30,095 bases of DNA, taken from positions 1-30,095 of IMG/VR virus record IMGVR_UViG_3300029448_000262, one strand, 5' to 3'. Below, piece by piece: positions 1,505 to 19,291 of the stretch (positions within the stretch are counted from its first letter, which is position 1; the number at the start of each line of letters is the position of its first letter). A program made the translations under genes and the position numbers. The notes beneath the pieces are model-generated. The model had not been told where the DNA came from, made no database searches, and saw only the letters and a list, made by a program, of their open reading frames with translations. Source of the stretch: a virus.

Positions 1505-1506
1505 AA

Positions 1507-1782
1507 ATGAGTGAAATAAATACAAACAATCAAAAGGTTTATGTCGGTAGTGGCAAAATCATCAATGGCCAATATGGTGCATTCAGAAATATAACTTTAA
1601 AGTTAGACGATTTAAAACCATATATTTATAAGTATAATGGTAAAAATTTAATTAACCTTACAGTTAGTGATAAAAGAGAAACAGACCAGTTTGGAAAAAA
1701 TGTTTCTGTTACAATCAATGATTTTAAGCCAGATGAAAATAAGTCAACTAAGGTTGACAATTCAAACGACTTACCTTTTTAA
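1507..1782 (+). CDS. SSB-like single-stranded DNA-binding protein
   Basis: A 91-residue protein that probably forms a single OB fold: alternating strands through residue 72, then a polar tail ending DNSNDLPF. The last residues match the acidic tip of bacterial SSBs (usually ending DDIPF or DDLPF), which docks partner proteins such as exonucleases, primases and helicases. It follows the annealing-protein gene by two bases and is followed at once by a strong intrinsic terminator. The body is much shorter than a cellular SSB (about 110-180 residues) and I see no clear family motif in it. The call therefore rests on the C-terminal tip and the neighbourhood. Confidence 0.75.
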   Translation: MSEINTNNQKVYVGSGKIINGQYGAFRNITLKLDDLKPYIYKYNGKNLINLTVSDKRETDQFGKNVSVTINDFKPDENKSTKVDNSNDLPF

Positions 1783-1792
1783 TTAAATCCAT

Positions 1793-1822
1793 AAGGCACA
1801 GACTAACACTGTGCCTTTTTTT
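1793..1822 (+). terminator. Intrinsic terminator inside the early gene chain
   Basis: AAGGCACAG (1793-1801) pairs perfectly with CTGTGCCTT (1809-1817) around a 7-base loop and runs into T1816-1822. The 9-bp stem is one of the strongest in the window. It lies after the SSB gene, so the first three genes can be transcribed in excess over the downstream replication genes, with read-through supplying the rest. Confidence 0.9.
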
Positions 1823-1825
1823 ATT

Positions 1826-2014
1826 ATGTCAATGAATATCAAAAGAACATCAAAGCAAATTTCATCTGCTCGTGAAGACAGAGAAAGAGAATTATATTAC
1901 ATGGTTCAATATTTAAGGGAACAGTTAAAAAAGAAAACCGAGGAACTTAAAGACAAGGAAATCATTATAAGGTTACTAAAAGCAAAAAACAAAGTATTGG
2001 ATGAAAAAATATGA
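1826..2014 (+). CDS. Small coiled-coil protein, function unknown
   Basis: A 62-residue highly charged protein that is almost entirely helical, with heptad-like Leu/Ile spacing from residue 20 to the end (YLREQLKKKTEELKDKEIII). I place the start at ATG 1826, just past the terminator T run; an in-frame GTG at 1811 lies inside the terminator stem and is unlikely. The gene overlaps the next start by 14 bases, so the pair is probably translationally coupled. No family is recognised. A coiled coil beside SSB and exonuclease genes could be a recombination accessory or scaffold, but nothing in the sequence shows this. Confidence 0.65.
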   Translation: MSMNIKRTSKQISSAREDRERELYYMVQYLREQLKKKTEELKDKEIIIRLLKAKNKVLDEKI

Positions 2015-2780
2015 AATTAAAATTATTAAATCTTGTTATGACAGCAATGCAGATTATCATTCTAATGATTCAATATCAGCATCAGGCCTTAAAGAAATAT
2101 CAAAAACCAATCCATCTGCTTACTTAAACAAACAGTGGCAAGAAACAGTGGATTTGGCAATAGGCACAGCCATACATACAGCCATATTAGAGCCAGAAAA
2201 ATTTTCTGATGAGATTTATGTAATGCCAGACTTAAATCTTAGAACAAAGGCAGGCAAAGAAGAAAAAGAGCAACACATTAAAGATGCTGGCCAAAAAACA
2301 GTTATTTCAGAAACTAATTATGATTTGGTAAAAAAAGCCAGTGAGTCGTTTTCTGCAAACAAAAAAGCAGTTGATCTTTTAAAAGAATCAGAAATTGAAA
2401 AGTCATATTATGGCCAAATTAATGGCATTCATGTAAGATGCCGGCCTGATATGTTAGGCAAAGATTTTATTTGTGATCTAAAAAGTTGCCGAAGTATATG
2501 GGCAAACGATTTTCGGCAAAACGCAAAGAACATGAGGTGGTTTTTGCAGGCTGTGTTTTATTCTGATTTTTTGTCAATACCGGCAGAAAACTTTCGATTT
2601 ATTGGTGTGTCAAAAGACAAAAACCCAAAAGTTGAAATATTTGGTCTGACAGAAAAACATATTGATCTTGGCCGATGGCAATGGCAAGAGGCATTTGATA
2701 GATGGTTTTTTTATAAAGAAACCGGTGTGTGTCCTGGTGAATATTGGAATGATTTTGATAATGAAATAAAATTAATATGA
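2001..2780 (+). CDS. PD-(D/E)XK exonuclease (exodeoxyribonuclease VIII-like)
   Basis: A 259-residue nuclease resembling the phage RecE/exodeoxyribonuclease VIII-type family (PDDEXK_1). Visible motifs in order: IGTAIHTAILEPE near residue 54; RPD at 148-150, supplying one metal-binding Asp; DLKS at 159-162, the D-x-K core; and QAVFYSD, the QxxxY motif typical of end-processing RecB-family nucleases. Such enzymes resect double-stranded ends to give single strands for an annealing protein, here the Sak3 homologue at 986. With the SSB-like protein they form a complete exonuclease/annealase/SSB set. It overlaps the preceding gene by 14 bases and the following gene by the 4-base ATGA. All key residues appear intact. 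Confidence 0.87.
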   Translation: MKKYEIKIIKSCYDSNADYHSNDSISASGLKEISKTNPSAYLNKQWQETVDLAIGTAIHTAILEPEKFSDEIYVMPDLNLRTKAGKEEKEQHIKDAGQKTVISETNYDLVKKASESFSANKKAVDLLKESEIEKSYYGQINGIHVRCRPDMLGKDFICDLKSCRSIWANDFRQNAKNMRWFLQAVFYSDFLSIPAENFRFIGVSKDKNPKVEIFGLTEKHIDLGRWQWQEAFDRWFFYKETGVCPGEYWNDFDNEIKLI

Positions 2781-3127
2781 CAACAAAAGAAAAAATAATA
2801 AAAATGTATTTGCTTGGCAAGTACAAATCAAAAAACAACATCAGTAATTTATTAGGTGTTAAAGAGTCTTATGTGAAAAAAATATTAAAAGAATTTAATG
2901 AGACCACAGTAATAAAATGTGATTTTGGTGTCTGTCAATCACTTACTGACACAAATAAATTTTATTTGTTTAGTTCGTCTGGTATCGAAAAAACACTAAT
3001 TTTGTTTACAAATGCTTTTTATTCTGAATGTGAACTGTCATATTCTGAAAAAAATTTTATAAAGCAAAACACAGGTTATAAAGTGTATGAGAGCAAAGAA
3101 TCATTATTACGATTATCTGGGCAATGA
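2777..3127 (+). CDS. HTH-containing hypothetical protein
   Basis: A 116-residue protein. Residues 3-42 look like a helix-turn-helix: an amphipathic helix, then NISNLLGVKESYVKKILKEF, with the spacing seen in sigma-factor or transposase-like DNA-binding heads. The rest is mixed and contains two Cys (residues 49 and 54) but no recognised motif. It overlaps the exonuclease stop by ATGA and the VRR-NUC gene by 41 bases. It could be a second phage transcription factor, or a sequence-specific partner of the neighbouring nucleases. The function is unknown. Confidence 0.65.
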   Translation: MTTKEKIIKMYLLGKYKSKNNISNLLGVKESYVKKILKEFNETTVIKCDFGVCQSLTDTNKFYLFSSSGIEKTLILFTNAFYSECELSYSEKNFIKQNTGYKVYESKESLLRLSGQ

Positions 3128-3467
3128 AGATAAAATGCAAAATAAATTAATGATTTATATTGACGAAAAATATCCAAATGCAATCATGACACACATTCCC
3201 AATGAAGGCAAAAGAACACCATTTGAACAGTATAAAATTAAAATGCTAGGCACAAAACCTGGTGTTCCTGATGTTATGATTTTCACACCATCAAAACAAT
3301 ATAATGGCTTTGCTTTGGAACTGAAATCAGGCTATAATAAACCAACTGAAAATCAAAAGAAATGGCTCGCAAAACTCAAAGATTGTGGATGGTTCGCCAT
3401 GTGGTCAAATGACTTAGAGGAATGTAAAACTAAAATTGATAATTATTTTAAAGATGCACTTGAATAG
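3087..3467 (+). CDS. VRR-NUC domain nuclease, possible Holliday-junction resolvase
   Basis: A 126-residue VRR-NUC (PD-(D/E)XK superfamily) protein. The motifs are EDKMQ at residues 14-18 (the alpha-1 acidic residue and Gln), HIPNEGKR, GVPDVMIF (catalytic Asp) and ALELKSG (E-x-K), followed by QKKWLAKLKDCGWFAMW, the typical C-terminal helix and strand. Phage VRR-NUC proteins are thought to cut branched DNA during replication or before packaging. I keep the start at ATG 3087 although it overlaps the upstream gene by 41 bases. The next Met (3135) would remove the conserved E-D of the first helix, and no other start lies between. It overlaps the next gene by 14 bases. Confidence 0.87.
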   Translation: MRAKNHYYDYLGNEDKMQNKLMIYIDEKYPNAIMTHIPNEGKRTPFEQYKIKMLGTKPGVPDVMIFTPSKQYNGFALELKSGYNKPTENQKKWLAKLKDCGWFAMWSNDLEECKTKIDNYFKDALE

Positions 3468-6587: not shown

Positions 6588-6813
6588 ATATTTTGACGCA
6601 CAATCCTGGTGCTTAAAACAAGGAATAAAAATCTACATTGTGCCAATGAGAAACAGAAAAGAATGTTTTATTGAAGTTGATGACAATGGTAAAATAACAA
6701 AGTCGCCAAATACTTACAAAAACCAGTCTATTGCATCTGACAAAATCTGGGATTTGTATTTACACATGTATAAAACAAATAAAAAACAAAATGAAAAAAA
6801 CAGGACATATTGA
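6577..6813 (+). CDS. Hypothetical protein
   Basis: A 78-residue lysine-rich protein, not recognised. Residues 18-50 suggest a small beta meander (IKIYIVPMRNRKECFIEVD, then NGKITKS), followed by an amphipathic helix and a charged tail. It overlaps the preceding gene by 11 bases and the next start by 23, as expected for a coupled gene in the early chain. Confidence 0.6.
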   Translation: MGNKYFDAQSWCLKQGIKIYIVPMRNRKECFIEVDDNGKITKSPNTYKNQSIASDKIWDLYLHMYKTNKKQNEKNRTY

Positions 6814-7276
6814 ATATCCACCCTTAATAAATGAACAGGCACTTTATATTGGTGGCCTTAGAGACACAGTGAATCAATACACAACAGCCAAATATCCTGA
6901 GTATGCCAGGCCTAATTTGCAGGTCGATCAACTAGGATGCAAGGCTGAAATGATTGCACAGTATTTTTTCTGGTCAAATAAAATAGAGCATCAACCCACA
7001 CAAATGCTTGGAGTTGACCCAATAAAAGATGCCGACATAATAGTTGGTAAAAAGAGAATCGATGTCAAGGGTTTGTGGTCATACATTAAAGAGTTACGAG
7101 TCAATAAAAAAGGACACCTTAAAGAAAAAAACATTACACATTATCTTTTCATACAGCCAAAATCAGACCATTTAAACAATGACGCAGCGCAGTGGTGGCT
7201 GTTTACACACCAAGAAATATCAAATTGGCAAATAAAAAAACTCACTTACACAGATGCTTTTGTGAGGGGTATATAA
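6791..7276 (+). CDS. Possible PD-(D/E)XK nuclease-fold protein
   Basis: A 161-residue protein with a restriction-endonuclease-like pattern: GCKAEMIAQYFF (acidic residue in the first helix), then KDADIIVGKKRIDVKGLW, which fits a D-x(n)-D-x-K core with IDVK as the catalytic strand. The C-terminal half is rich in Trp and aromatic residues (AAQWWLFTHQEI). I start at ATG 6791; an in-frame TTG at 6731 would place 60 more bases inside the previous gene. It is the last gene of the early chain and is followed by a terminator. It could process replication intermediates or degrade host DNA. The fold call is tentative, because the first acidic residue is assigned by eye. Confidence 0.55.
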   Translation: MKKTGHIEYPPLINEQALYIGGLRDTVNQYTTAKYPEYARPNLQVDQLGCKAEMIAQYFFWSNKIEHQPTQMLGVDPIKDADIIVGKKRIDVKGLWSYIKELRVNKKGHLKEKNITHYLFIQPKSDHLNNDAAQWWLFTHQEISNWQIKKLTYTDAFVRGI

Positions 7277-7308: not shown

Positions 7309-7334
7309 ACCCTTCATTGCAGGGGTTTTTTTTT
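7309..7334 (+). terminator. Intrinsic terminator ending the early block
   Basis: ACCCTT (7309-7314) can pair with AGGGGT (7321-7326), including one G-U pair, around a 6-base loop, followed by T7326-7334. It separates the early gene chain from the packaging genes. The stem is modest, so termination may be partial. Confidence 0.72.
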
Positions 7335-7344
7335 GTTATTTTTG
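7317..7344 (+). promoter_or_regulatory. Promoter for the packaging genes (TTG-N17-TATTTTTG)
   Basis: TATTTTTG (7337-7344) is a perfect match to the Bacteroidota -7 consensus TAnnTTTG, with a TTG 17 bases upstream (7317-7319) inside the terminator loop. It lies four bases before the ATG of the small terminase gene, so the transcript would be almost leaderless or the box may serve a different start. Promoter and terminator overlap here. Confidence 0.55.
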
Positions 7345-7348
7345 CAAT

Positions 7349-8916: not shown

Positions 8917-11226
8917 ATGGCAACTCTTTACGACAGATTTAAAAATCTATTTACAAGCAAAAACTTACAAAGAACAGCAGAGGCATACAACAGGGCTGTT
9001 TTTAATTATATAGGCAATAACATTGTCTTTGCCAAGGAAAATGATGACACTTATATAAATCATGGTTACAGACGTAATGCAACAGTTTACTCTATCATAA
9101 ATATTATAGCAAAATCTTGTACGACAATCCCATTTATGATATATGAAAAAAAATCTAACAACGATCTAAAAAGATATAAGTCAATTACATCATCCGGTCT
9201 TGACACTAATACATTACTGAAAGCAGAGCAGTTAAGAAAGTCAGCATTGGTAGAATTAGAAGACACAGAACTGCATGAGTTACTGAATAGACCAAACCCT
9301 GCTCAATCTTATAATTCATGGCTTACAGAAATCGTTGCGTTTGGTAAACTAACTGGTAACAGGTATATTTATGGTATTGGCCCTGAGACTGGTGGCAATT
9401 CTAAAAAATACAAAGAACTATATGTGTTGCCTTCACAACTAATGGAAATCGTATCAGGGGGCATTATGAACCCGGTCAAGGCTTACAGACTTGATTACAA
9501 AGGTAGATACGATATTGATGCTGAGGACATATTACACATCAAAGATTACAACCCTTATTATGATGGCACAGGCTCGCACCTTTATGGCCAGTCACCACTC
9601 AAGGCAGGACTTAGAACATTAACAACAAACAACGAGGCTGTGACTACTGGTGTTAAGTTTTTACAGAACCAAACAGCAAGAGGTGTTTTATATGCAGACG
9701 AAGGTGATCTAACTGAAGTGCAAGCCCAGGCATTAAAAGATAAATTCAAACGATCACACCAAGGCTCAGCAAATGCAGGTGATGTCATTATTACACCAAA
9801 GAAGTTGTCATGGGTAAACTTTGGACTAGATGCCTCTGATCTTTCATTGATCGAACAATATAATGCATCAATCAAAGACTTAGCAAATATATTTTCTATT
9901 CCTGCAATTCTGCTCAACAACACAGAGTCAAGTACATACAATAATGTAAAAGAGGCCAAAAAGAGTTTATATCAAAACTGCGTGATGCCTGAAATGATAA
10001 AAATAAGGGATGAACTAAACAGATGGCTTGCCCCTAAGTATGGCGATAAAATTTATATTGACTTTGATTTCAGTGTCATCCCAGAACTGCAAGAAGAGAT
10101 GGACAAGGTTGTGCAACAACTGTCTCAATCCTGGTGGCTAACAATGAATGAAAAGAGGGGTGCCATGAATTATGGTGTTGACGAAGATGACGAAAAGTTA
10201 AACGATTACTATATTCCTGCAAACCTTATCCCTTTAAATGCTGTTGACAATGAGCCTGTTGAGCCTGTTGACTCTGACGTTGACAAGTCAATTGATAAAA
10301 TAAACCTAAAACGTAAAGTGCCAGGAATGACTGATGTGTTTACAACAAGAGGTGAGGCTGAAGATAGGGCTGAAGACCTTGGGGGTCGTGGTTTTCACAG
10401 ACACCAGTTTGATGGTGAAGATGTTTATATGCCCTTTGAATCGCATGAACAGTATGAGAGAGCCATTGAAAGACAGAAAGAGTATCACAACATGGAAGAT
10501 GATGACAAATACCATTATGGTGAACCCCATGAAGATGAGGATGACAAGTATTATCATGATGACGAAGACAAAGCACCAAGTATATCAGGCAGAGTCGAAA
10601 CTGCTCTTAGACGTATGGTCAGTGAACATAATGAAGAACATGGCGACAAAGCATCTTCAAGAGCAACTTATGGAATGTTAGCAAGTTCTTTTCGTAGGGG
10701 AATCGGTGCTTACAGAACAAACCCATCATCTGTAAGGCCAAACGTAAGGTCTGAAGAACAATGGGCCTTTGGTCGTGTATCTGGTTTATTGTATGCTCTT
10801 AGAAACAATAGATTTAGAAGAACACCTTATGACAGGGATTTATTACCTTCAGCGCACCCACTGTCGAGTAAAGAAAAATCATATACAAGAAAACAAATGT
10901 TTGATGATTACCCACAGAGTGCAACCAATAACGCAAGGAGAGTAAAAAACTGGATTGATAAATATGGCAGGGATGAGGTTGATGGAATGACAAAGGTTGG
11001 TCTTGCCAGAATGAATCAATTGATTGCAAGAGAATCATTATCATTATCAACATTAAAAAGAACTTATAGTTTCTTGTCAAGAACAAAAGGTGGTGGATAC
11101 AATAAAATAAACCCTGACTACAAAGACACACCTTGGAAAGACAAAGGTTATGTTGCTTTTTTAGGATGGGGTGGTCAATCAATGCTCAGTTATGCAGAAC
11201 GTAAACTTGACCAAATAGATGAATAA
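8917..11226 (+). CDS. Portal protein with three-part C-terminal extension
   Basis: A 769-residue protein. Residues 1-430 are an HK97-type portal: the N-terminal VYSIINIIAKSCTTIPFMIY region, the HIKDYNPYYDG strand and the SLIEQYNASIKDLANIFSIP helix that line the DNA channel. Most such portals end near 400-450 residues. Here an acidic linker leads to three extra segments: 471-515 (MTDVFTTRGEAEDRAEDLGG, then the FHRHQFDGEDVYMP strand), 557-654 (RRMVSEHNEEHGDKA, RRGIGAYRTNP, EQWAFGRVSGLLYALRN, DRDLLPSAHPLS) and 664-769 (YPQSATNNARRVKNWIDKYG, PWKDKGYVAFLGWGG). I recall similar segments in other marine phage structural proteins, but their function is unknown. The segment at 515-557 is His/Asp/Glu rich. 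The gene shares one base with the MuF gene. Confidence 0.9.
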   Translation: MATLYDRFKNLFTSKNLQRTAEAYNRAVFNYIGNNIVFAKENDDTYINHGYRRNATVYSIINIIAKSCTTIPFMIYEKKSNNDLKRYKSITSSGLDTNTLLKAEQLRKSALVELEDTELHELLNRPNPAQSYNSWLTEIVAFGKLTGNRYIYGIGPETGGNSKKYKELYVLPSQLMEIVSGGIMNPVKAYRLDYKGRYDIDAEDILHIKDYNPYYDGTGSHLYGQSPLKAGLRTLTTNNEAVTTGVKFLQNQTARGVLYADEGDLTEVQAQALKDKFKRSHQGSANAGDVIITPKKLSWVNFGLDASDLSLIEQYNASIKDLANIFSIPAILLNNTESSTYNNVKEAKKSLYQNCVMPEMIKIRDELNRWLAPKYGDKIYIDFDFSVIPELQEEMDKVVQQLSQSWWLTMNEKRGAMNYGVDEDDEKLNDYYIPANLIPLNAVDNEPVEPVDSDVDKSIDKINLKRKVPGMTDVFTTRGEAEDRAEDLGGRGFHRHQFDGEDVYMPFESHEQYERAIERQKEYHNMEDDDKYHYGEPHEDEDDKYYHDDEDKAPSISGRVETALRRMVSEHNEEHGDKASSRATYGMLASSFRRGIGAYRTNPSSVRPNVRSEEQWAFGRVSGLLYALRNNRFRRTPYDRDLLPSAHPLSSKEKSYTRKQMFDDYPQSATNNARRVKNWIDKYGRDEVDGMTKVGLARMNQLIARESLSLSTLKRTYSFLSRTKGGGYNKINPDYKDTPWKDKGYVAFLGWGGQSMLSYAERKLDQIDE

Positions 11227-12062
11227 TGCGAGTCTTAACAAAGCAATTCAAAGAAAACTGGAGAGCATCTTATGATGATCGTTTAGAAAAGTCAGAGAGA
11301 ACACACATAAGAATATTCAGAAAATATTACAAAGAAAATTATCAAAAGGCCATTGAAAAATATGACCAGGGAGTTATAAAACCAGATTTGATAATGACAA
11401 CTAAAAGCCTGACTGATCTATACATACAAATGTATCAGGACATCGGTATTAAACAGGCCAAATGGTATGCGAGTAATTTTGACAAGTTTATAAAAAAAAG
11501 TGTTGACCCAAATCAATTCTTAGATTATTGGAATCAAGCCTTTGCAAAAAAAGGTCGTGATATGGCTGGTGTCAGAGTCGTCAGTGTTATTGCAACAGCA
11601 AGAAGTGCGTTCCAAGATATACTTAAAAAATTAATGCAGGACGAGGCATTCATGGCTGAAGGCGCAGTGGTTCAAGCAAGAATACTAAGAAATAAATTTA
11701 ATCAAGTTGGTCAATATCAAGCCGAAAGAATCGTAAGAACAGAATCAGCCTTGGCCTCAAACTATGCCACACAACAATCTGCATTGCAAATTTTTCCTGG
11801 TAGTCAAATGTCAAAAGAATGGATTGCCGGAAGTGATGCAAGGGTTAGGCCTGACCACGCAAGAGCAGATGGGCAAATAGTAAAGTTTGATGAAATGTTT
11901 TTAGTAGGTGGTGAAAAATTAGAATATCCGGGAGACCCAAGAGGTTCTGCTGGTAATGTTATAAATTGTAGATGTTCCACAGCACCTATACCAGACGAAG
12001 ATGCCATATCGAATGTTGAACTTGAAGAAATAGGTTTTGGCATGACAGGTCTAAGAACCTAA
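11226..12062 (+). CDS. MuF-like minor head protein (head morphogenesis)
   Basis: A 278-residue protein. The N-terminal 180 residues are helical and charged. The C-terminal 85 residues carry the Phage_Mu_F signature: RIVRTESALASNYATQQSA, EWIAGSDARVRPDHARADGQ, YPGDPRGSAGNVINCRC. Such proteins join the portal during head assembly and can be ejected with DNA. The order portal, MuF, protease, capsid is the standard one. The ATG overlaps the last base of the portal stop. A 35-base gap with a promoter-like box follows. Confidence 0.92.
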   Translation: MRVLTKQFKENWRASYDDRLEKSERTHIRIFRKYYKENYQKAIEKYDQGVIKPDLIMTTKSLTDLYIQMYQDIGIKQAKWYASNFDKFIKKSVDPNQFLDYWNQAFAKKGRDMAGVRVVSVIATARSAFQDILKKLMQDEAFMAEGAVVQARILRNKFNQVGQYQAERIVRTESALASNYATQQSALQIFPGSQMSKEWIAGSDARVRPDHARADGQIVKFDEMFLVGGEKLEYPGDPRGSAGNVINCRCSTAPIPDEDAISNVELEEIGFGMTGLRT

Positions 12063-12071
12063 TTAAATTAA

Positions 12072-12089
12072 TTTGTATTTTTACATAAA
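12072..12089 (+). promoter_or_regulatory. Promoter-like box before the protease gene (18-bp repeat copy 2)
   Basis: This is an exact copy of the 18-mer at 8883-8900, holding TATTTTTA at 12076-12083, 14 bases before the ATG at 12098. It probably raises expression of the protease and major capsid genes. No -33 TTG is visible at the usual spacing. Confidence 0.6.
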
Positions 12090-12097
12090 TTTTTGTT

Positions 12098-12778
12098 ATG
12101 AATAAAATATTATTTAAACAATCACCCATTGGCGAAATAGTAGATGCTGACGAAAACAAGGGGATTGTCAAGGGTTATGCGAGTTATTTCGATAACATGG
12201 ATGCTGATAAAGACATCATAAGACCTGGTGCTTATAAAAAAACCATTATGGAAAATGGGTCAAGAGTTAAATATTTGTATCAACACGACATGAACAAACC
12301 AATCGGTAAAATGAACGAATTGTATGAAGATGAAAAGGGCCTTATGTTTGTGGCTGAAGTTCCTAAAACACAACTAGGAAAAGATGTCATTGAACTTATG
12401 AAGGCCGGTGTCATAACAGAAAACTCAGTTGGCATAATGCCAATCGTCAAAGAAGACAAAGGCAATTTCAGAGAAATCAGAGAGGTAAAACTTTATGAGG
12501 TTTCTGCTGTTACATTAGCCTCAAATGACGAAGCAAAAATATTAGATGTAAAGGGGAGTAAATCACTTGATTCTCTTTATTCTCGTTACGATAATCTAGT
12601 TAAGATCATTCGTAAAAACAATATTTCAGATGAACTGGCTTTTGCCATTGAGTCTGAAATTCTTAAACTCAAATCATATTTCCAAGAACTCACAGAGTCG
12701 CCTCAAAACACTTTGCCGAAAAAAGAAAACAATGACAGCGAGTTGTTAAAATATTTATATAACAATCTAAAAAAGTAA
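12098..12778 (+). CDS. HK97-type prohead protease
   Basis: A 226-residue serine protease of the HK97 prohead family (Peptidase_U35-like, herpes assemblin fold). Residues 1-155 are the protease domain, with VKGYASYFDNMDADKDII, the catalytic His63 in YLYQHD and Ser110 in TENSVGIMP. The remaining 70 residues are charged and helical and may act as scaffold or be removed on maturation. The enzyme cleaves the capsid delta domain inside the prohead. The capsid gene follows after nine bases, with no hairpin between them, so the two are co-transcribed. Confidence 0.93.
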   Translation: MNKILFKQSPIGEIVDADENKGIVKGYASYFDNMDADKDIIRPGAYKKTIMENGSRVKYLYQHDMNKPIGKMNELYEDEKGLMFVAEVPKTQLGKDVIELMKAGVITENSVGIMPIVKEDKGNFREIREVKLYEVSAVTLASNDEAKILDVKGSKSLDSLYSRYDNLVKIIRKNNISDELAFAIESEILKLKSYFQELTESPQNTLPKKENNDSELLKYLYNNLKK

Positions 12779-12787
12779 TTTTTCAAA

Positions 12788-13990
12788 ATGGAAAATAACA
12801 TAAAAAAAGAGTTGGATAACATTACAAATGAAATCGACTCTAAAATCGAAAAATCGTCTTTGTCTGCTATCGAGACAATGAAAGCAGAGACAGACGCAGT
12901 TGTCAAGTCTAGTGAGGAAAATCTCGCTAGTAAGATTACTGAAATCAATGACAGACTTGATAAGTCTGAAGTTGAAGCAAAAAAGAGATTTGAGGCAAGT
13001 CAACCGATGAGTTTTAAATCTGCTTTAAAAGATGCCCTAAATAAAGGCGCAATTGAGAGTTTTGTAAAAGGTAACTCAAGGTCAGCAAGATTTGATATGA
13101 AAGCCGACATGACTGTTGGTGCTGACTTTACTGGTGACGTAATTGCACCATTAAGGGTTCCCGGAGTTTATAAAGACCCGAGCAGACCTCAACACTTCAG
13201 ACAGTTCATCCCAGTTGGGTCAACTCAATCTGATGTGATTAGATATGTGAAAGAGTCAGGATATACTGATGGCGCTAGTGCAAAAGCCGAAGGCAATGCA
13301 CTTGGTCAGTCTGATTTTGATTTACAAGCAGTGGATGCAAATGTTCAATTGATTGGAACATACTTGAGAATTAGTAAGCAAATGGTTGAAGATTATGACC
13401 AACTATCATCTTATTTAAGTTCAAGAATTCCTTCAAAGGTTCTTACTGCTGAAGATGACCAAATCGTTGGGGGAAATGGTGTTTCACCAAACTTCCTAGG
13501 TTTGTTTAACTCTGGTACTGCATTTGATGTATCAACAAACAACCCATTGGCTGACTCAGTTGACAATGCTAATGAGTTTGACGTTTTAGTTGCATCAATG
13601 AACCAGTTGGCGATCAATGAATATTCTGCTGATAATATTGTTTTAAACCCATCAGATTTTCATAAGATTCTATTGTTAAAAGACACTCAAAATAATTATT
13701 TGAAAGATCAAGTATATCAAGGATTACAGCCTAACTTTATGGGAGTGCCTGTTATTCTAAATACTGAAATTCCAAATGGTCAATTTTTAGTGGCAAACTT
13801 TGCGCAATCTTGTCAATACTGGGTGAGAGATAATGTCAGCCTTGAATTCTTTGAGCAAGACAGTGACAACGTTCAAAAGAACTTTATTACTGTCAGAGCA
13901 CAATTAAGAGGTGCATTAGCGACTTATCTACCAAAAGGTATTATTCATGGAACATTCTCGACTGCAAAAGCAGCACTTGAGACACCATAA
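12788..13990 (+). CDS. Major capsid protein, HK97 fold
   Basis: A 400-residue major capsid protein. Residues 1-75 are a charged coiled coil (delta domain) that acts as scaffold and is expected to be cut off. The remainder has the HK97 layout: FRQFIPVGSTQSDVIRYVKE for the E-loop region, then a P-domain helix, and near the C-terminus NVQKNFITVRAQLRGALATYLPKGIIHG. The length is typical. Its high abundance is supported by the strong UUCG terminator directly after the gene. The exact protease cleavage site cannot be read off; the segment around residues 98-115 before TVGADFTGDV is a candidate. Confidence 0.94.
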   Translation: MENNIKKELDNITNEIDSKIEKSSLSAIETMKAETDAVVKSSEENLASKITEINDRLDKSEVEAKKRFEASQPMSFKSALKDALNKGAIESFVKGNSRSARFDMKADMTVGADFTGDVIAPLRVPGVYKDPSRPQHFRQFIPVGSTQSDVIRYVKESGYTDGASAKAEGNALGQSDFDLQAVDANVQLIGTYLRISKQMVEDYDQLSSYLSSRIPSKVLTAEDDQIVGGNGVSPNFLGLFNSGTAFDVSTNNPLADSVDNANEFDVLVASMNQLAINEYSADNIVLNPSDFHKILLLKDTQNNYLKDQVYQGLQPNFMGVPVILNTEIPNGQFLVANFAQSCQYWVRDNVSLEFFEQDSDNVQKNFITVRAQLRGALATYLPKGIIHGTFSTAKAALETP

Positions 13991-14012
13991 TAATATAATT
14001 ATATTGGAAATT

Positions 14013-14037
14013 AGAGGCCTTCGGGCCTCTTTTTTTT
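14013..14037 (+). terminator. Strong UUCG terminator after the capsid gene
   Basis: AGAGGCC (14013-14019) and GGCCTCT (14024-14030) form a perfect 7-bp stem closed by a TTCG tetraloop and followed by T14030-14037. It ends the head-gene transcript and opens the small accessory interval. Confidence 0.97.
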
Positions 14038-14079
14038 ACCTGTAAAACAAAATAATTTAAAGTTTTTTTATAATTATAC

Positions 14080-14109
14080 TTGTTTATTGAAAATTTATTT
14101 ATATATTTG
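14080..14109 (+). promoter_or_regulatory. Canonical Bacteroidota promoter TTG-N19-TATATTTG
   Basis: TTG (14080-14082), a 19-base spacer and TATATTTG (14102-14109) give a complete primary-sigma-type Bacteroidota promoter. It lies 22 bases before the ATG at 14132 and downstream of the capsid terminator. It is the only promoter in the window with both elements at ideal spacing, so this pair of small genes may be expressed by the host polymerase without phage help. Confidence 0.75.
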
Positions 14110-14131
14110 GGCATAATTAAAAACAATAAAT

Positions 14132-14287
14132 ATGAAAATAGATTTTACAAAATTAGAATTACAAGTTATAAATTACGCATTAGAACTTTCTTACTCAGAC
14201 AGAAAGCCAAAGTATCAAAAAATAATACACAGAGCACAATCTAAGATTCTTAAATTAGATTTTGAGCAGATATATGACATAGATTAA
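14132..14287 (+). CDS. Small hypothetical protein (51 aa)
   Basis: A 51-residue protein beginning MKIDFTKLELQVINYALELS. It is largely helical and basic in the middle (DRKPKYQKIIHRAQSKILKL), suggesting a small helical or nucleic-acid-binding protein. No family is recognised. Support for a real gene: a canonical promoter 22 bases upstream, an A-rich leader of the type used elsewhere in this genome, full use of the space up to the next gene (11-base gap), and normal codon use. It lies in the moron-like interval after the capsid gene. Confidence 0.68.
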   Translation: MKIDFTKLELQVINYALELSYSDRKPKYQKIIHRAQSKILKLDFEQIYDID

Positions 14288-14298
14288 AAACAAAACAA

Positions 14299-14553
14299 AT
14301 GAAAGTATTATCAAAAATTTTAAAAATGTTTTTCTTTGGCAAGGGTCTCCAATATTGGATATGTGTGCCGGAGTTCTTTGACACAAAAAAAGAAAAGGAT
14401 TATTTTATAAAAGAAACTAATTTGTTTCTTGAAAATAAAATTCAGATCAAACACCCTGCATTAGATGATGATTGGGAAACCATAAGCAGAGAGGAACAAG
14501 TTGATAGAATGTTATTTTGGAAACAGAAAATTAATAAAAAGAATAGTGCCTAA
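14299..14553 (+). CDS. Hypothetical protein in the accessory interval
   Basis: An 84-residue protein with a hydrophobic, basic N-terminus (MKVLSKILKMFFFGKGLQYW) that might touch a membrane, followed by a charged region with many Lys and Glu. No family is recognised and there is no clear transmembrane span. The leader before its ATG is A-rich (AAAAACAAAACAA). Its last codons form one arm of a 9-bp inverted repeat closed at 14591-14599, and an intrinsic terminator follows, so the gene and its RNA structure form a closed unit with the upstream 51-residue protein. Confidence 0.62.
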   Translation: MKVLSKILKMFFFGKGLQYWICVPEFFDTKKEKDYFIKETNLFLENKIQIKHPALDDDWETISREEQVDRMLFWKQKINKKNSA

Positions 14554-14599
14554 GATTTTTCTTTTCATATTTTAGTTAGTTGTTTTTAATTTAGGCACT
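14545..14599 (+). ncRNA. Long-loop hairpin directly upstream of a terminator (structured 3' region)
   Basis: AGTGCCTAA (14545-14553, including the stop codon of the preceding gene) is perfectly complementary to TTAGGCACT (14591-14599). The 37-base loop is very T-rich. Two bases further an intrinsic terminator begins. The fold is visible in the sequence. It could be a 3'-end stability element, a stop-codon-sensing attenuator or the tail of a small RNA; I cannot decide. Confidence 0.5.
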
Positions 14600-14601
14600 T
14601 G

Positions 14602-14629
14602 ACTGGGGTGAAAGCCCCAGTTTTTTTTT
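14602..14629 (+). terminator. Strong intrinsic terminator
   Basis: ACTGGGG (14602-14608) and CCCCAGT (14615-14621) form a 7-bp stem with a 6-base loop and a T run 14621-14629. It ends the unit of the two small genes at 14132-14553 and isolates the nuclease gene that follows. Confidence 0.96.
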
Positions 14630-14632
14630 GCG

Positions 14633-14640
14633 TAAATTTA
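14633..14640 (+). promoter_or_regulatory. -7-like box before the PD-(D/E)XK gene
   Basis: TAAATTTA, preceded by TTGCG and lying 13 bases before the ATG at 14654. It follows the terminator immediately, so the nuclease gene probably starts a new transcript. No TTG lies at -33. Confidence 0.5.
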
Positions 14641-14653
14641 TTGAGCAACCAAG

Positions 14654-15028
14654 ATGAACAGAAACCAAAAAGGATGTTTTGCTGAATATCATTTTTCAAC
14701 AACTGCAATGAAAAATGGTTTTAATGTTTCTGTGCCACTTTTAGACTCAAGCCCTTATGATTGCATCTTAGAAAAACAAGGTAAACTTTTTAAAATACAA
14801 GTCAAATATTTAGGTGAAAAAAGATATAAGCATGGTCGATCTGTGCAAGTTACATTGAAAAGAGAGGGGAAAAAAAACTACGACTTAGAACTTGTTGATT
14901 TTTTTGCACTGTGGCATGAGGTTAGAAATGGCTTTTACATAATTAAAAATATTGGTCAAAAAAGTTTTAAAATTACAGACAATGGTATTTATGAAAATAA
15001 TTTTAATAACTTTGTATTATTAGTTTAA
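14654..15028 (+). CDS. PD-(D/E)XK endonuclease-like protein
   Basis: A 124-residue protein of the PD-(D/E)XK group that includes small Holliday-junction-resolvase-like and intron-associated endonucleases. Motifs: NQKGCFAEYHFSTTAM (Glu in the first helix), DSSPYDCIL (metal-binding Asp) and FKIQVKYLG (Q-x-K core, a common substitution for D/E-x-K). A basic stretch (RYKHGRSVQVTLKREGKKNY) would contact DNA. It lies between two strong terminators with its own -7-like box, interrupting the normal order capsid then connector, as mobile or cargo genes do. It might be a free-standing homing-type nuclease, a defence or competition factor, or a resolvase. The role is not determined. Confidence 0.75.
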   Translation: MNRNQKGCFAEYHFSTTAMKNGFNVSVPLLDSSPYDCILEKQGKLFKIQVKYLGEKRYKHGRSVQVTLKREGKKNYDLELVDFFALWHEVRNGFYIIKNIGQKSFKITDNGIYENNFNNFVLLV

Positions 15029-15048
15029 TTTTTTTCATTGTTTTAAAG

Positions 15049-15076
15049 AGCACCATTCATGTGGTGCTTTTTTTTT
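15049..15076 (+). terminator. Strong intrinsic terminator after the nuclease gene
   Basis: AGCACCA (15049-15055) pairs with TGGTGCT (15062-15068) around a 6-base loop and runs into T15068-15076. It closes the accessory nuclease unit. Confidence 0.95.
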
Positions 15077-15083
15077 AACTTTA
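15076..15083 (+). promoter_or_regulatory. -7-like box for the connector/tail block
   Basis: TAACTTTA followed by C matches the recurring TAnnTTTAC box of this genome. Its first base is the last base of the terminator T run, and it lies 14 bases before the ATG at 15098. The long late operon would begin here. Confidence 0.5.
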
Positions 15084-15097
15084 CTTAAAATTTTATT

Positions 15098-15286
15098 ATG
15101 AAAATCAAAACAAAAAATAAATCTGTAATATTAGGTTCTGTTCAATATTGTGAGGACAGAGAATTTAATGTTTCTGATAAAATAGGTAAAGAACTTATTA
15201 AAGGTGGCTGGGCTATTGAAATCAAAGAAAACAAAGAAGCGAAAGAAACAAAAGAATTAAAAACAGATTCTAAGGAAACCAAATGA
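15098..15286 (+). CDS. Small head-associated hypothetical protein
   Basis: A 62-residue protein with a small beta-rich head (residues 1-45: VILGSVQYCEDREFNVSDK, then KELIKGGWAIEI) and a Lys/Glu tail. Short proteins with the pattern of a strand, a Val-Asp element, LI..G.A, often lie between capsid and gp6-like connector genes in siphoviruses, where they may decorate or stabilise the head. It overlaps the connector start by ATGA. The function is unproven; only the position and the small-domain pattern support it. Confidence 0.68.
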   Translation: MKIKTKNKSVILGSVQYCEDREFNVSDKIGKELIKGGWAIEIKENKEAKETKELKTDSKETK

Positions 15287-15825
15287 GACAAATAAAGATA
15301 AATTCTGTGACTGGTTCTGAAATCGTGAGCCTAACAGAAATGAAAAATTATTTAAGGGTTGATCATGCAGTTGACAATACGTTGATTACAGACATGATTA
15401 CTCAAGCCAGGCAGATTATTGAAAACTATCTGTCAAGAGACGTTGTTGCCAAAACTAGAACTTATTACTTGGATGAGTCAGATGGTTTAATTGACATACC
15501 CTTTGGCCCTGTTGCCTCAATACAATCTGTCACAGTTGATGGCACTTCAGCAACACACACTGTGATTGGCCTTGATAATGAAACGATTGAATTGCAAGCA
15601 TCACCATCATATGTTGTCTCTAATTTGTTTTCTGATGCATATAAAAAAATAAAAATAAATTATACAACTTCAGGTTTAACCGACATAGCCATTAAACATG
15701 CAATTATGCAAATGGTTTCAACCTTTTACGATAATAGAGCAGATTTTAAAGATGGCATCGTGGTGAGAGAAATACCAATGACATCTAAAAAAATGGTTGA
15801 CAGTTTTAAATCAATGTATGTGTAA
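15283..15825 (+). CDS. Head-tail connector, gp6-like adaptor
   Basis: A 180-residue protein with the Phage_connect_1/gp6-like signature: SLTEMKNYLRVDHAVDNTLITD, then MITQARQIIENYLSRDVV, followed by a beta region beginning IDIPFGPVASIQSVTVDG. This adaptor ring binds under the portal after packaging and receives the head-closure protein. The stop overlaps the next ATG by one base. Length and position are standard. Confidence 0.9.
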   Translation: MRQIKINSVTGSEIVSLTEMKNYLRVDHAVDNTLITDMITQARQIIENYLSRDVVAKTRTYYLDESDGLIDIPFGPVASIQSVTVDGTSATHTVIGLDNETIELQASPSYVVSNLFSDAYKKIKINYTTSGLTDIAIKHAIMQMVSTFYDNRADFKDGIVVREIPMTSKKMVDSFKSMYV

Positions 15826-16163
15826 TGGATGCCGGCAAACTCAATTCAAGGATTTTATTTTACAACGCAAATCAAGTCTCAGATGGTTTTGGGGGCTTTT
15901 CTGTGGCTTTTACGTCTTCAGGTAATGTTTGGGGTCACTATAAGCAAATAGATGGCTCTGTTGATGATGAAAATGGCTTGAGACAAAGGGCAATCACTGT
16001 TGAAGTAATATGTCGCAAAAAAAGTGTGGAAAACATAAGGATTGAAGATGTTTTTAGAATAGACAGCAGTAGTGGCTCAAATTATAGAATCACAAATATT
16101 TATGACTCTGAATATAAATATTTTGTAAAAATTGAAGGTGTCCTTGTTGACCAAAGTATATAA
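15825..16163 (+). CDS. Head closure protein (SPP1 gp16-like / head-tail joining)
   Basis: A 112-residue beta-barrel head-closure protein of the Phage_H_T_join type. It begins MDAGKLNSRILFY and has the usual DGFGGFSVAFTSSGNVWGHY segment and a C-terminal YRITNIYDSEYKYFVKIEG strand pair. It seals the portal-connector channel and provides the tail docking surface. It overlaps both neighbours by one base. Confidence 0.9.
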   Translation: MDAGKLNSRILFYNANQVSDGFGGFSVAFTSSGNVWGHYKQIDGSVDDENGLRQRAITVEVICRKKSVENIRIEDVFRIDSSSGSNYRITNIYDSEYKYFVKIEGVLVDQSI

Positions 16164-16606
16164 TGAAAATTGAGGCTAAAATAAACAGTGCTGATTTAGG
16201 TTTATTACAAAGTAAAATAAATTCATTAAAAAAGTTAGCCAGTCAAGAACTTTCCAATGAAATAGGAAAAACGGCATTTGGAATTGAAAGAAGGGCCAAA
16301 AGAACTGTGCCTGTTGATACTGGTGGCCTTAAACAATCAATAAAAACATTTCATTCTGGGAAAAAAGCATTTGTAGAGGCTGGAAAAAAATATGCGCCAT
16401 ATATTGAATTTGGCACTGGTTCAAAGGTTGATTTGACAGACATGCAAGAACTTGGCATCCCAAAATCTTATGCTTTACAATTTAAAGGCAAAGGCAAACG
16501 TAACGTTAATATAAGACCACAACCTTTTTTGTTTCCATCGGCAAGAATAGAATTTTTAAATTTGTTAAAGAAATTACAAAATAAAATCAATAAAATAATA
16601 AAATGA
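16163..16606 (+). CDS. HK97 gp10-like neck protein
   Basis: A 147-residue protein of the HK97 gp10 family: helices around ELSNEIGKTAFGIERRAKR, then TVPVDTGGLKQSIKTF (the VDTG.L..S motif) and KYAPYIEFGTGSK. It acts at the head-tail interface or in tail completion. The C-terminus is Lys/Asn rich. The ATG overlaps the previous stop by one base, and the stop overlaps the tail-terminator start by four. Confidence 0.92.
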   Translation: MKIEAKINSADLGLLQSKINSLKKLASQELSNEIGKTAFGIERRAKRTVPVDTGGLKQSIKTFHSGKKAFVEAGKKYAPYIEFGTGSKVDLTDMQELGIPKSYALQFKGKGKRNVNIRPQPFLFPSARIEFLNLLKKLQNKINKIIK

Positions 16607-17040
16607 AAGACCCGGCTAGATTTATACGTCAAAAAATTATTACTGCTCTTTCAGGAAACATCACCTACGATGGTTCTGCTGTGCCGGTTTATGGAACAGT
16701 GCCAAGCACGACAGGTTTTCCATACATTAGAGTGTATGGTGTGAACACTGTTGAAGTTGACCAAAACCGGTCATCATTCACCACAGAGGTTACAACAAGA
16801 ATAGAAGCAGTGAGTCGTTTTATAACAGATGATGGTGGTGAATTAACTACAAACTCATTAATTTCAGATTGCTTAAATTTGTTAAGAGTTAGATCAGGTA
16901 GTTACATAAACCTGTCTGGCGATGGTTTTAAGGTTTATACGAGTGTGATTGGTAATATTAATTATTTAAGAGAAGACACCAAAAACAACACTTATTATAG
17001 AGCGATATTGGAACTAGAAAACAGAGTTTTAGAAATATAA
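16603..17040 (+). CDS. Tail terminator / completion protein (DUF3168-like)
   Basis: A 145-residue protein with the DUF3168-like layout: an N-terminal helix, VPVYGTVPSTTGFPYIRVYG, a strand-rich middle and a C-terminal YYRAILELENRV strand. It should cap the tail tube and join it to the neck. The order gp6, closure, gp10, terminator is typical of HK97-like siphoviruses. What follows departs from that order: the lysis block and tail fibre separate it from the tail tube gene at 25202. Confidence 0.82.
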   Translation: MKDPARFIRQKIITALSGNITYDGSAVPVYGTVPSTTGFPYIRVYGVNTVEVDQNRSSFTTEVTTRIEAVSRFITDDGGELTTNSLISDCLNLLRVRSGSYINLSGDGFKVYTSVIGNINYLREDTKNNTYYRAILELENRVLEI

Positions 17041-17043
17041 GTT

Positions 17044-17352
17044 ATGTCAGATATAAATTCAGAATCAAAATTAAAATTAACTCTAAAAGAAGTGATTGCT
17101 GTTGTGATTGGTTTGGCGAGTTTGTTTGGTATTTATTTCACCTTGCAAGGCCAGGTTGATAATAATTCTGAAGACATCACAAGCCTACAAGATGAGGCTG
17201 TAAACCCTGTTGAGTTTCAATATAAAGACGAACTTGTTAGATCGTCAATACTTAGAATCGAAGATAAAACAAATTTTTTAGCAGATGACATTGAGTCAAT
17301 TAAATCATCGGTTGAAAAAATTGAGCAACGTTTATATGAAATTAAAAGATAA
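17044..17352 (+). CDS. Inner-membrane coiled-coil protein, candidate i-spanin or lysis accessory
   Basis: A 102-residue protein with one transmembrane helix at residues 17-34 (VIAVVIGLASLFGIYF). Lys residues precede it and acidic residues follow, predicting N-in, C-out topology. The periplasmic part ends in a coiled coil (residues 60-102, ILRIEDKTNFLADDIESIKS). This is the topology of an inner-membrane spanin subunit. It overlaps the gene for the exported Trx-fold protein by 17 bases and sits at the head of the lysis block. Against a classical spanin pair, no outer-membrane lipoprotein with a lipobox follows. It might instead be a holin regulator. Confidence 0.72.
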   Translation: MSDINSESKLKLTLKEVIAVVIGLASLFGIYFTLQGQVDNNSEDITSLQDEAVNPVEFQYKDELVRSSILRIEDKTNFLADDIESIKSSVEKIEQRLYEIKR

Positions 17353-17689
17353 AATATGTGTCCTGTTAACTGTCCTTTATGTATCTATTGCGAGTAGTCA
17401 AAATTATAAAAACAACGTCAGTGTCGTGGTTTTTAATGCTGATTTTATCGGGCAAAAAGTTGACGTCAAAGATTTCAAACAAGTTGACAAGTATCTGTTT
17501 ACATTTGAAAACGATAAACATAAAAAGCACTTTCAAAAAGAAAAAATAATCTACATGCCGACACTGTTGCTTTTTAACAATGGTGAAGAACTTATAAGAA
17601 TTGAAGCAGGTATTGACCTTAAATTACCTGATGGTTATAAAAATAAAATCAAAAATAAATTAGAACAACTTTTACAAAATAAATTTTAA
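17336..17689 (+). CDS. Exported thioredoxin-fold protein lacking CxxC
   Basis: A 117-residue protein with an N-terminal signal peptide (residues 1-22, hydrophobic CVLLTVLYVSIAS ending SSQ) and a mature thioredoxin-like fold: strand VSVVVFNA, helix, strand KYLFTFEN, helix, then IIYMPTLLLFNNGEELIR, where Pro75 is the cis-proline position. The redox CxxC pair is missing, so the protein is more likely a binding or chaperone module than an oxidoreductase. I choose ATG 17336, because the in-frame ATG at 17285 would put 17 residues before the signal sequence. It ends one base before the outer-membrane protein gene, and co-expression in the periplasm suggests the two act together. Confidence 0.75.
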   Translation: MKLKDKICVLLTVLYVSIASSQNYKNNVSVVVFNADFIGQKVDVKDFKQVDKYLFTFENDKHKKHFQKEKIIYMPTLLLFNNGEELIRIEAGIDLKLPDGYKNKIKNKLEQLLQNKF

Positions 17690-17690
17690 G

Positions 17691-18863
17691 ATGAAAAAAC
17701 TATATATCATATTCCTACTTTTTACAATCACAATTAATGGCCAAGTATTCAAAAAGGCTTATGATGAGATTTTTAAATATTCAACAGTCTTTGTTGCTGG
17801 TAGCGCGCAAAATTCATATGAGCCAGAAAGACGACAGTATTTTGTGAGAACCCCAGAGGGTGCTGGTTTGTACGACATTCCTGACGTATATGATGCCACT
17901 GTGGTGCATCCTTACAGGTATCGTTATGGTTTTGGTATTAGAAAAATTGGATTGTTTGATTTTGAAAAAAGAGATAAAAATTATTATGATGGTAATGAAA
18001 ATCTTGTTGCATTATCAGCACCAACATCAAGTGTGCCAGGAAATTTAGAGTATTTATTCTTTTGGCAAAAAGAAAGAGACAGGGGTGAACTTTTTACCAA
18101 TACCAGGTATTTCATAAGACACACAGGTAAATGGCACATTGTAAAAATAGAACAAAGATCAAATGAAAGAGTAAATTTTAAATACAATTCAGGTGAATTA
18201 AGGTTAAGAATTCCAATAGGCAAGAAACTAAGTGTTTCTTATGGTGGCATTTACAGAACACATACAAGAAGTTATGGATACAACCCTTTTGAAATATGGG
18301 TTAATGAGTTAGACGACAATGGTAATCCAATTAACCCCTGGTATTCTCTTGCATACGAATTTGGCTGGGTTGATGAGTTGTATCAATATACAAATCTTGC
18401 AACCGGTGAATCATCTTATGACTGGGTTTGGACTGACCCTGATGGTAATATTAGGGCAAGAACAGACTTAGAGTTCAGGGATGGCCCTTTTAAGTCAATC
18501 ATTGCAGAATATAACAACCAGCAATGGGATAAAATACCAGAATTTCAAATGATTTCACAGATTGTTGGTTTTGATTATTATTTACAAAATCAAAAATTTT
18601 GGGTGCATCTGTTTGGTTCTTACTTATTTTCACATAAATACATTGGTGGCTCTGATATTGAAAAGAGTTATTTGCACAGGAATAATTTTGGAAAAGGTGG
18701 ACTAATAAAAGATGCTCAACCAGAACAATGGGAAGACTTTACATTTGGTGCAACAATAGGATGGAAACTTAACAGATTTGGTATTTTCTTAGATGGTGAG
18801 TTTACAAGATATTGGTCGTCTGAAATATTTAATACACAGATTGGTGTTAATTTTAGATTATGA
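17691..18863 (+). CDS. Phage-encoded outer-membrane beta-barrel-like protein
   Basis: A 390-residue protein with a clear signal peptide (MKKLYIIFLLFTITINGQ, cleavage near residues 17-18). The mature part is strand-rich, with many alternating hydrophobic/polar segments (ELRLRIPIGKKLSVSYGGIY, FWVHLFGSYLFSH, FTFGATIGWKLNRFGIFLDG), aromatic girdle residues and a C-terminal strand ending IGVNFRL. These are features of an outer-membrane barrel; Flavobacteriia barrels often end in a hydrophobic or aromatic residue. Long Asp/Gly/Asn-rich segments (for example near residues 200-250) would be surface loops. It overlaps the amidase gene by ATGA. It might alter the host surface (exclusion of other phages, receptor masking) or act in lysis as an outer-membrane step. 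A structural role is less likely because of the signal peptide. Confidence 0.75.
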   Translation: MKKLYIIFLLFTITINGQVFKKAYDEIFKYSTVFVAGSAQNSYEPERRQYFVRTPEGAGLYDIPDVYDATVVHPYRYRYGFGIRKIGLFDFEKRDKNYYDGNENLVALSAPTSSVPGNLEYLFFWQKERDRGELFTNTRYFIRHTGKWHIVKIEQRSNERVNFKYNSGELRLRIPIGKKLSVSYGGIYRTHTRSYGYNPFEIWVNELDDNGNPINPWYSLAYEFGWVDELYQYTNLATGESSYDWVWTDPDGNIRARTDLEFRDGPFKSIIAEYNNQQWDKIPEFQMISQIVGFDYYLQNQKFWVHLFGSYLFSHKYIGGSDIEKSYLHRNNFGKGGLIKDAQPEQWEDFTFGATIGWKLNRFGIFLDGEFTRYWSSEIFNTQIGVNFRL

Positions 18864-19291
18864 GAAAAATCGACAAACTCATTGTGCATTGTTCTGCCAC
18901 CCCAGAGTTTAAATATTTTGATGTTGATGATATTACGGAATGGCATGTAAAGGGCAATAAATGGTCTGATTGTGGGTATCATTATGTGATTACATTAGAT
19001 GGTAAAATACAGGAAGGAAGGCCAATTGAAAAGCAAGGTGCTCATGTTGCCGGCATGAATAGGCACAGCATTGGTATATGTTATATTGGGGGCATGGATA
19101 AAAACATGGATTTGTGGCTAGACACCAGAACAACAGAACAAAAAGACTCATTATTTAATTTGCTTATGGATTTAAAATTTCAATTTCCTGAGGCTGTTGT
19201 TTATGGTCATAATGATTTTACTGATAAAAAAGTCTGTCCTTGTTTTGATGCTTTTAAAGAATATCGTGAAATCTCAAATTATACTGAATAA
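18860..19291 (+). CDS. N-acetylmuramoyl-L-alanine amidase (endolysin, T7-lysozyme type)
   Basis: A 143-residue Amidase_2 (zinc amidase) that cuts the bond between N-acetylmuramic acid and L-alanine in peptidoglycan. Catalytic features match T7 lysozyme: His10 (IVHCSATP), Tyr40 (CGYHYVI), His117 (YGHNDF), Lys124 and Cys126 in DKKVCPCFDA. No signal peptide is present, so release needs the holin. Its length is that of the bare catalytic domain, with no wall-binding module. It overlaps the outer-membrane gene by 4 bases and the holin gene starts two bases after its stop. Confidence 0.95.
   Translation: MRKIDKLIVHCSATPEFKYFDVDDITEWHVKGNKWSDCGYHYVITLDGKIQEGRPIEKQGAHVAGMNRHSIGICYIGGMDKNMDLWLDTRTTEQKDSLFNLLMDLKFQFPEAVVYGHNDFTDKKVCPCFDAFKEYREISNYTE

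Follow-up and report, generated by a model that had tools for sequence, protein, structure and literature searches.

A probable moron-type cargo slot beside a core nuclease gene in the head module of an uncultured phage family

Between the major capsid gene and the head-tail connector gene of the virus IMGVR_UViG_3300029448_000262, whose record of 30,095 nt is hereafter called the window, lies an interval that quite probably has two components, namely a cargo slot of the moron type, located next to a promoter and with content exchanged through recombination at short homologies, and an independent core nuclease gene beside it. Comparison with relatives at the level of sequence indicates that the nuclease is fixed, that the slot is permanent, that its genes are replaced in a polar manner with sharp edges, and that cargo is shared across lineages. 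The original prediction, which had described a moron-like interruption of the capsid-connector order by about 1.1 kb with three terminators, a promoter, two small genes, a hairpin and a nuclease gene, was accurate as to the presence of these parts (Table 1).

Layout and control signals of the interval

The interval lies between the capsid stop at 13990 and position 15097, and the stretch 14013-15072 within it holds all three terminators (T1, T2 and T3). Its GC content is 25-30% as compared to 31-40% in most flanking segments, and values of 25-27% recur where the connector unit opens. By Pfam, the proteins neighbouring the slot in the window are protease, capsid, nuclease and connector proteins, and the gene of the 62-aa protein is located upstream of the connector gene in many relatives. 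An Rfam search of 13900-15300 gave no score near the gathering threshold. As a 99-nt direct repeat is present at positions 1-99 and 29997-30095 of the 30095-base record, the contig is probably complete, representing a circularly permuted or redundant genome.

Table 1. Features of the capsid-connector interval and its neighbours in the window.
Feature	Coordinates	Strand	Evidence or remark
Major capsid protein	12788..13990	+	PF05065 E=6e-33, phrog_10; left neighbour
Terminator T1 after the capsid gene	14013..14030	+	terminator scan
Slot promoter TTG-N19-TATATTTG	14080..14109	+	left edge of exchanged DNA
p51, 51 aa, first-position cargo gene	14132..14287	+	family F79
p84, 84 aa, more stable slot gene	14299..14553	+	family F4
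Hairpin with a long loop and a 9-bp stem, at the p84 end and upstream of T2	14545..14599	+	stems 14545-14553/14591-14599
Terminator T2 with -7-like box TAAATTTA (14633-14640)	14601..14640	+	terminator 14601-14622
Core PD-(D/E)XK nuclease, 124 aa, I-Ssp6803I-like	14654..15028	+	PF11645 E=5e-14
Terminator T3 with -7-like box TAACTTTA (15076-15083)	15045..15083	+	terminator 15045-15072
62-aa protein opening the connector unit, outside the slot	15098..15286	+	phrog_2616 E=8e-8
Head-tail connector	15283..15825	+	PF05135 E=3e-9, phrog_442; right neighbour

Relatives were collected from IMG/VR by a capsid scan, in which 122 relatives were confirmed and 80 kept (81 loci with the window), and by a nuclease-side scan, which returned 80 loci with 74 new identifiers, many of which refer to contigs already picked up by the capsid scan. 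Every relative is a metagenome contig, and together with the window they provide 127 capsid-to-nuclease stretches, 102 of them distinct in sequence. Among phage records, a megablast search with 12.5-17.5 kb of the window gave zero matches, the nuclease gave 29 matches at 24-43% identity, none of which bears a Bacteroidota name, and the best-listed matches of the capsid were 29-33% identical; genome-contig scans for the nuclease and for the capsid confirmed no cellular homologue of either. Two gut phages with a terL match were uninformative on the locus. The phages form an uncultured family, the hosts of which are probably marine Bacteroidota.

In the scanned region 11000-19000, T1, T2 and T3 were the only plus-strand terminators; nine terminator-like sites were counted there as compared to 3.4 ± 2.1 in shuffled sequences, the other six being weak and located on the minus strand. 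T1 recurs in most relatives at about 20-25 nt past the capsid stop. The slot promoter that follows it, with TTG at 14080-14082 and the -7 box at 14102-14109, fits the Bacteroidota -33/-7 type, the -7 box of flavobacterial sigma-A being TAnnTTTG (PMC9723704). A strict -7 box was present 90-165 nt past the capsid stop in 77 of the 102 distinct slots as compared to 8.6% of random segments, and was not found within the searched range after the capsid stop in the other 25. The strict form TTG-N18-20-TAnnTTTG occurs only twice in the 34-kb contig G004, once in each of its two slots (the second one is described below), and in other contigs there are a few extra copies of the strict slot-type promoter or one slot is without it.

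The boxes following T2 and T3 deviate from strict TAnnTTTG, and in the relatives the strict box was mostly not found upstream of nuclease and connector, boxes fused to the T-tract of the terminator being seen instead. A T-tract with TAnnTTT[AG] no more than 6 nt behind it was present at T2 in 71/102 and at T3 in 97/101 slots, as compared to 27/1515 T-tracts elsewhere; this enrichment argues that the boxes after T2 and T3, which had been postulated originally, are not due to chance, and the fused sites are described here as putative terminator-promoter hybrids. At both sites the next ATG lies close behind the box. The same kind of hybrid is located upstream of terS at 7326-7348 of the window, with an ATG 4 nt past the box. 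Nuclease, terS and connector hence fall into one promoter class, the hybrid, and the slot carries a host-type promoter. Since the nuclease has its promoter class in common with terS and connector, it may be called late and the slot separately controlled; its expression is probably late, and its probable task is DNA processing within the cycle of the phage itself. The claim that each unit has its own start and stop signals is upheld by sequence and conservation, which point to separate transcription units.

The nuclease gene in the head module

The nuclease gene lies between capsid and connector in all 64 loci holding both (of 81, window included). In the other 17 loci no connector was found downstream, and those of them that also lack the nuclease end no more than 1463 nt past the capsid gene. 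Among the 74 further loci of the nuclease-side scan, the capsid gene was present upstream in 60 and the connector gene downstream in 70; the 14 loci without capsid extend at most 1073 nt upstream and the four without connector at most 706 nt downstream. An empty site, i.e., a capsid gene directly adjoining the connector gene, was seen neither in the 64 loci nor in the nuclease-side loci. Strict conservation, which the original prediction had named beforehand as contradicting a moron, is what was found for the nuclease part, and the moron-like description does not apply to the nuclease, but probably to the T1-T2 slot with its swapped cargo.

The median dN/dS of the nuclease was 0.085, as compared to 0.077 for the capsid and 0.124 for the connector, and its distances correlated with those of the capsid at a Mantel r of 0.60, as compared to 0.75 between capsid and connector (84 loci with full genes). 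As judged from these sequence comparisons, the nuclease is a core gene under purifying selection rather than moron cargo. In one locus (L022:8477-8617) the nuclease frame is stopped after 46 codons, by a sequencing error or a real loss; this broken frame mis-set the right edge of that slot, giving 1415 rather than 1291 nt.

Besides the Pfam profile, the nuclease matches phrog_5018, and its AlphaFold2 model (pLDDT 86) is closest to I-Ssp6803I (2ost, TM 0.78, E 6e-8), followed by SPARDA nuclease domains and the archaeal Hjc. Residues G7, C8, E11, Y35, D36, K47, Q49 and K51 are invariant in 89/89 rows (88 distinct sequences plus the row of the window); the active site of I-Ssp6803I we take to be E11, D36, Q47 and K49. 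Fold, family profile (PF11645) and catalytic motif are common to both enzymes; unlike I-Ssp6803I, the nuclease described here is not intronic, has no empty alleles and occupies a fixed core position in the head module.

Content and edges of the slot

The slots are 604 to 2316 nt long and contain 458 ORFs in 99 families (127 stretches, 102 distinct), the families being single-linkage BLAST groups of ATG-start ORFs of at least 35 aa, a rough grouping in which some families are possibly merged and other genes missed. First positions are occupied by 56 families and last positions by seven. Close pairs were defined by at least 90% identity in both the capsid end and the nuclease (n = 92, not mutually independent as they fall into 16 clusters). 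Within them the last gene belonged to the same family in 92/92 cases as compared to only 15/92 for the first gene, which bears out the expectation of alternative cargo at this site; the 51-aa gene is among those swapped. A homologue in the partner was present for 24/92 first, 63/91 second, 129/152 middle and 91/91 last slot genes, and outside the slot for 51/51 called nucleases, 251/260 upstream and 393/400 downstream genes. To account for the 63 slots of the 16 close clusters, the first gene must have changed 33 times or more, and the last gene need not have changed at all. In three pairs a gene has been added ahead of an otherwise identical list, and the window and its relative L007, with 97% identity in the capsid end and 98% in the nuclease, have different first genes. 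As no relative has the capsid gene directly followed by the connector gene, these data argue for a permanent slot with changing content and not for an insertion that is present or absent; on this comparative evidence the T1-T2 stretch is a permanent slot with variable cargo. Whole-contig comparison revealed that several other places in these genomes vary too.

The family of the more stable gene p84 (F4) is found in 31/102 slots. Between the window and L007, p84 has 10 differences, distributed over codon positions as 2/1/7, with a dN of 0.014 and a dS of 0.196. The family of p51 is present in no other slot, and p51 has no match in Pfam or PHROG. First-gene families in general are nearly without matches in Pfam, PHROGs or PADLOC; among 56 first-gene representatives, PADLOC returned five single weak matches, the best with E=2e-4. 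A more stable slot family, F9 (L022:7906-8121 and relatives), resembles DUF3310, annotated as "nucleotide kinase" in PHROGs, the link to F9 being made by eye, as each of the scans gives a single member that it leaves unnamed.

Seven families (F11, F13, F14, F18, F22, F23 and F24) occupy the first position wherever they occur, and several of them are shared by distant backbones: F18 is 97% identical at the DNA level between L057 and L125, the capsids of which are 72% identical, F24 is 88% identical with capsids at 71%, and F22 77-79% with capsids at 55-67%. F14 and others are just 44-51% identical in protein, which suggests that they are old. A relative of p51 (73% amino acid and 80% nucleotide identity) was found in an unrelated phage (L176/L177), the terL of which is 33% identical, directly behind a hairpin terminator. 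Moreover, there is a second slot ahead of terS, and the promoter in front of it is of the same type as that of the capsid-side slot. In nine relatives the first genes of this second slot were alike only in G003 and G004 at the threshold used, and two families, F55 and F95, are represented in capsid-side as well as terS-side slots. The window carries there, at 6791-7273, a gene for a 161-aa protein that appears PD-(D/E)XK-like by eye, with no homologue at this place in the nine relatives compared and no Pfam match.

At the left edge, median identity dropped from 1.00 within the -7 box to 0.55 over the 20 nt that follow and to 0.37 in the gene, as measured in 31 pairs selected for an identity of 90% or more over the 40 nt upstream; for instance, L062 and L057 are near-identical through TATCTTTGG and carry different genes beyond it. 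The leader past the -7 box is also common to some pairs, e.g., L056/L057. As read from these alignments, new genes replace or precede old ones directly behind the -7 box. At the right edge, perfect hairpins rich in GC and distinct from T1 and T2 were detected, which follow gene 1 in 32 slots and gene 2 in four, with three inside ORFs and none elsewhere; they were not found in about two thirds of the slots, including that of the window, in whose own clade p84 starts 11 nt past p51. Median identity at hairpins (23 pairs) was 0.33 at 40-10 nt before the hairpin, 1.00 in the adjoining 10 nt and 0.68 in the 40 nt after it. Hairpin stems vary among clades with the pairing kept (GGCGCG/CGCGCC, GGCCCG/CGGGCC), a result that is informative solely for the range of pair types, as the pairs were counted ungapped on 18-mers preselected for pairing. 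The hairpin type tracks the backbone and not the cargo, since the hairpin accompanying F14 differs among L074, L046 and L019 or is absent. The hairpin at 14545-14599, with a loop of about 37 nt, was compared by eye with its counterparts in the close relatives L001, L005, L006 and L007; the stems differ in L001, L005 and L006, yet they still seem to be paired. It is possibly the structured 3' end of the slot transcript.

Exchange of the cargo and comparison with known systems

Following this, we propose that the first unit (14013 to about 14622) consists of the capsid terminator, a host-type promoter that would be one of few such matches in the genome, one or two exchangeable genes, a more conserved gene and a terminator. 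Exchange would take place at short conserved sequences, namely terminator and promoter on the left and hairpin or next gene on the right, and might be performed by the phage's own single-strand annealing protein. The window encodes at 986-3464 a recombination set of SSAP_Sak (PF06378, E=6e-29), a DUF3799 PDDEXK-like protein and a VRR_NUC protein; the latter two are present in 9/9 relatives compared, and a tblastn search with the SSAP of the window gave no match in these nine. Cargo placed first behind the promoter would be expressed at a high level and probably early, which would suit roles against the host, against defence or in competition. The second unit (about 14623-15072) would comprise the core nuclease behind a terminator-promoter hybrid like those before terS and connector.

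The locus resembles the morons of lambdoid and Mu-like phages, as these are described in PMC4378225, in that small genes of unassigned functions, with their own promoter and terminator (here by sequence and conservation), are located between two core genes and differ among relatives; the GC content, lower than in most flanking segments, may be a further likeness. Unlike the morons of that account, it has no empty-site relative, and shows instead a permanent slot, turnover at the promoter end, defined edges and an adjoining core nuclease. In the far relative HK97, capsid and gp6 are adjacent with an annotated terminator between them. Anti-phage defence hotspots are likewise small loci of high turnover between two conserved genes, of 1-5 kb as compared to 0.6-2.3 kb here, but the cargo described here consists mostly of single proteins below 165 aa without a convincing match to known defence. 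A literature search, which was not exhaustive, found no description of a slot of this kind. In integrons, newly acquired genes are inserted immediately downstream of a fixed promoter, and those acquired earlier lie further off; a hairpin marks the cassette end and a site-specific integrase is encoded beside the array. The slot is similar in that new genes are found behind a fixed promoter and, in some clades, a hairpin at the cargo end, but here the hairpin stays with the backbone rather than the cargo and no integrase was identified beside the slot, nor was any found in the annotated parts of the window, slot neighbours included.

A more far-reaching reading, which we regard as rather doubtful, is that of a dedicated integrase-free gene-capture device, in which a fixed host-type promoter is nearly reserved for two sites (after the capsid gene and before terS), the -7 box serves as left joint and the hairpin or next-gene leader as right joint, small dark genes are drawn from a cross-lineage pool with the newest placed in front in the manner of an integron, and exchange is made more frequent by the linked nuclease of homing type. 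That the nuclease drives the swapping is unlikely; in this view it would be a homing-type endonuclease that has been domesticated and cleaves the slot, or the edges of the slot, of a relative infecting the same cell, the resident cargo and its flanks then being copied in during repair: despite the fact that its fold and family are closest to I-Ssp6803I, its active site is invariant and it always adjoins the variable slot, the slot gene next to it is the most stable and changes occur at the opposite end, near the promoter, the second slot is variable with no such nuclease alongside, and its universal, largely capsid-congruent distribution is unlike that of selfish homing genes. An aid of the nuclease to exchange might nevertheless exist, with the same two reservations of a varying second slot and of stable genes beside the nuclease.

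It appears quite unlikely that the slot is a tolerated stretch between terminators, shaped by neutral drift and random insertion of small ORFs without any special boundary. The low GC content, the small ORFs without known family and the usual view of moron acquisition as illegitimate recombination followed by selection would be in accordance with such a stretch, but distant lineages have the same families in first position, at up to 97% nucleotide identity, the edges coincide with -7 box and hairpin, and the changes in p84 affect mostly third codon positions. Chimeric contigs with mixed cargo, generated by short-read assemblers switching between co-occurring strains at conserved DNA, are a very improbable explanation. 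The relatives are indeed all metagenome contigs with breaks adjoining conserved DNA, but the pattern extends over 102 distinct slots that come from many IMG/VR records, no switch of the last slot gene is seen in 92 close pairs despite the conserved DNA behind it, and cargo families stay at the first position across lineages.

For the proposed slot with exchange by short homology, the significance lies in the question of how morons are acquired, for which there is no agreed mechanism; in PMC4378225 the acquisition is called mysterious and no common flanking sequence is said to have been found. The locus offers many natural experiments, in which near-identical phages differ mainly in the first gene, with sharp edges on both sides; at this locus, direct tests can be made of the joint sequences, of the recombinase and of what the linked nuclease contributes. 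Furthermore, the slot provides a rule by which dozens of small uncharacterised proteins, possibly under arms-race selection, can be found.
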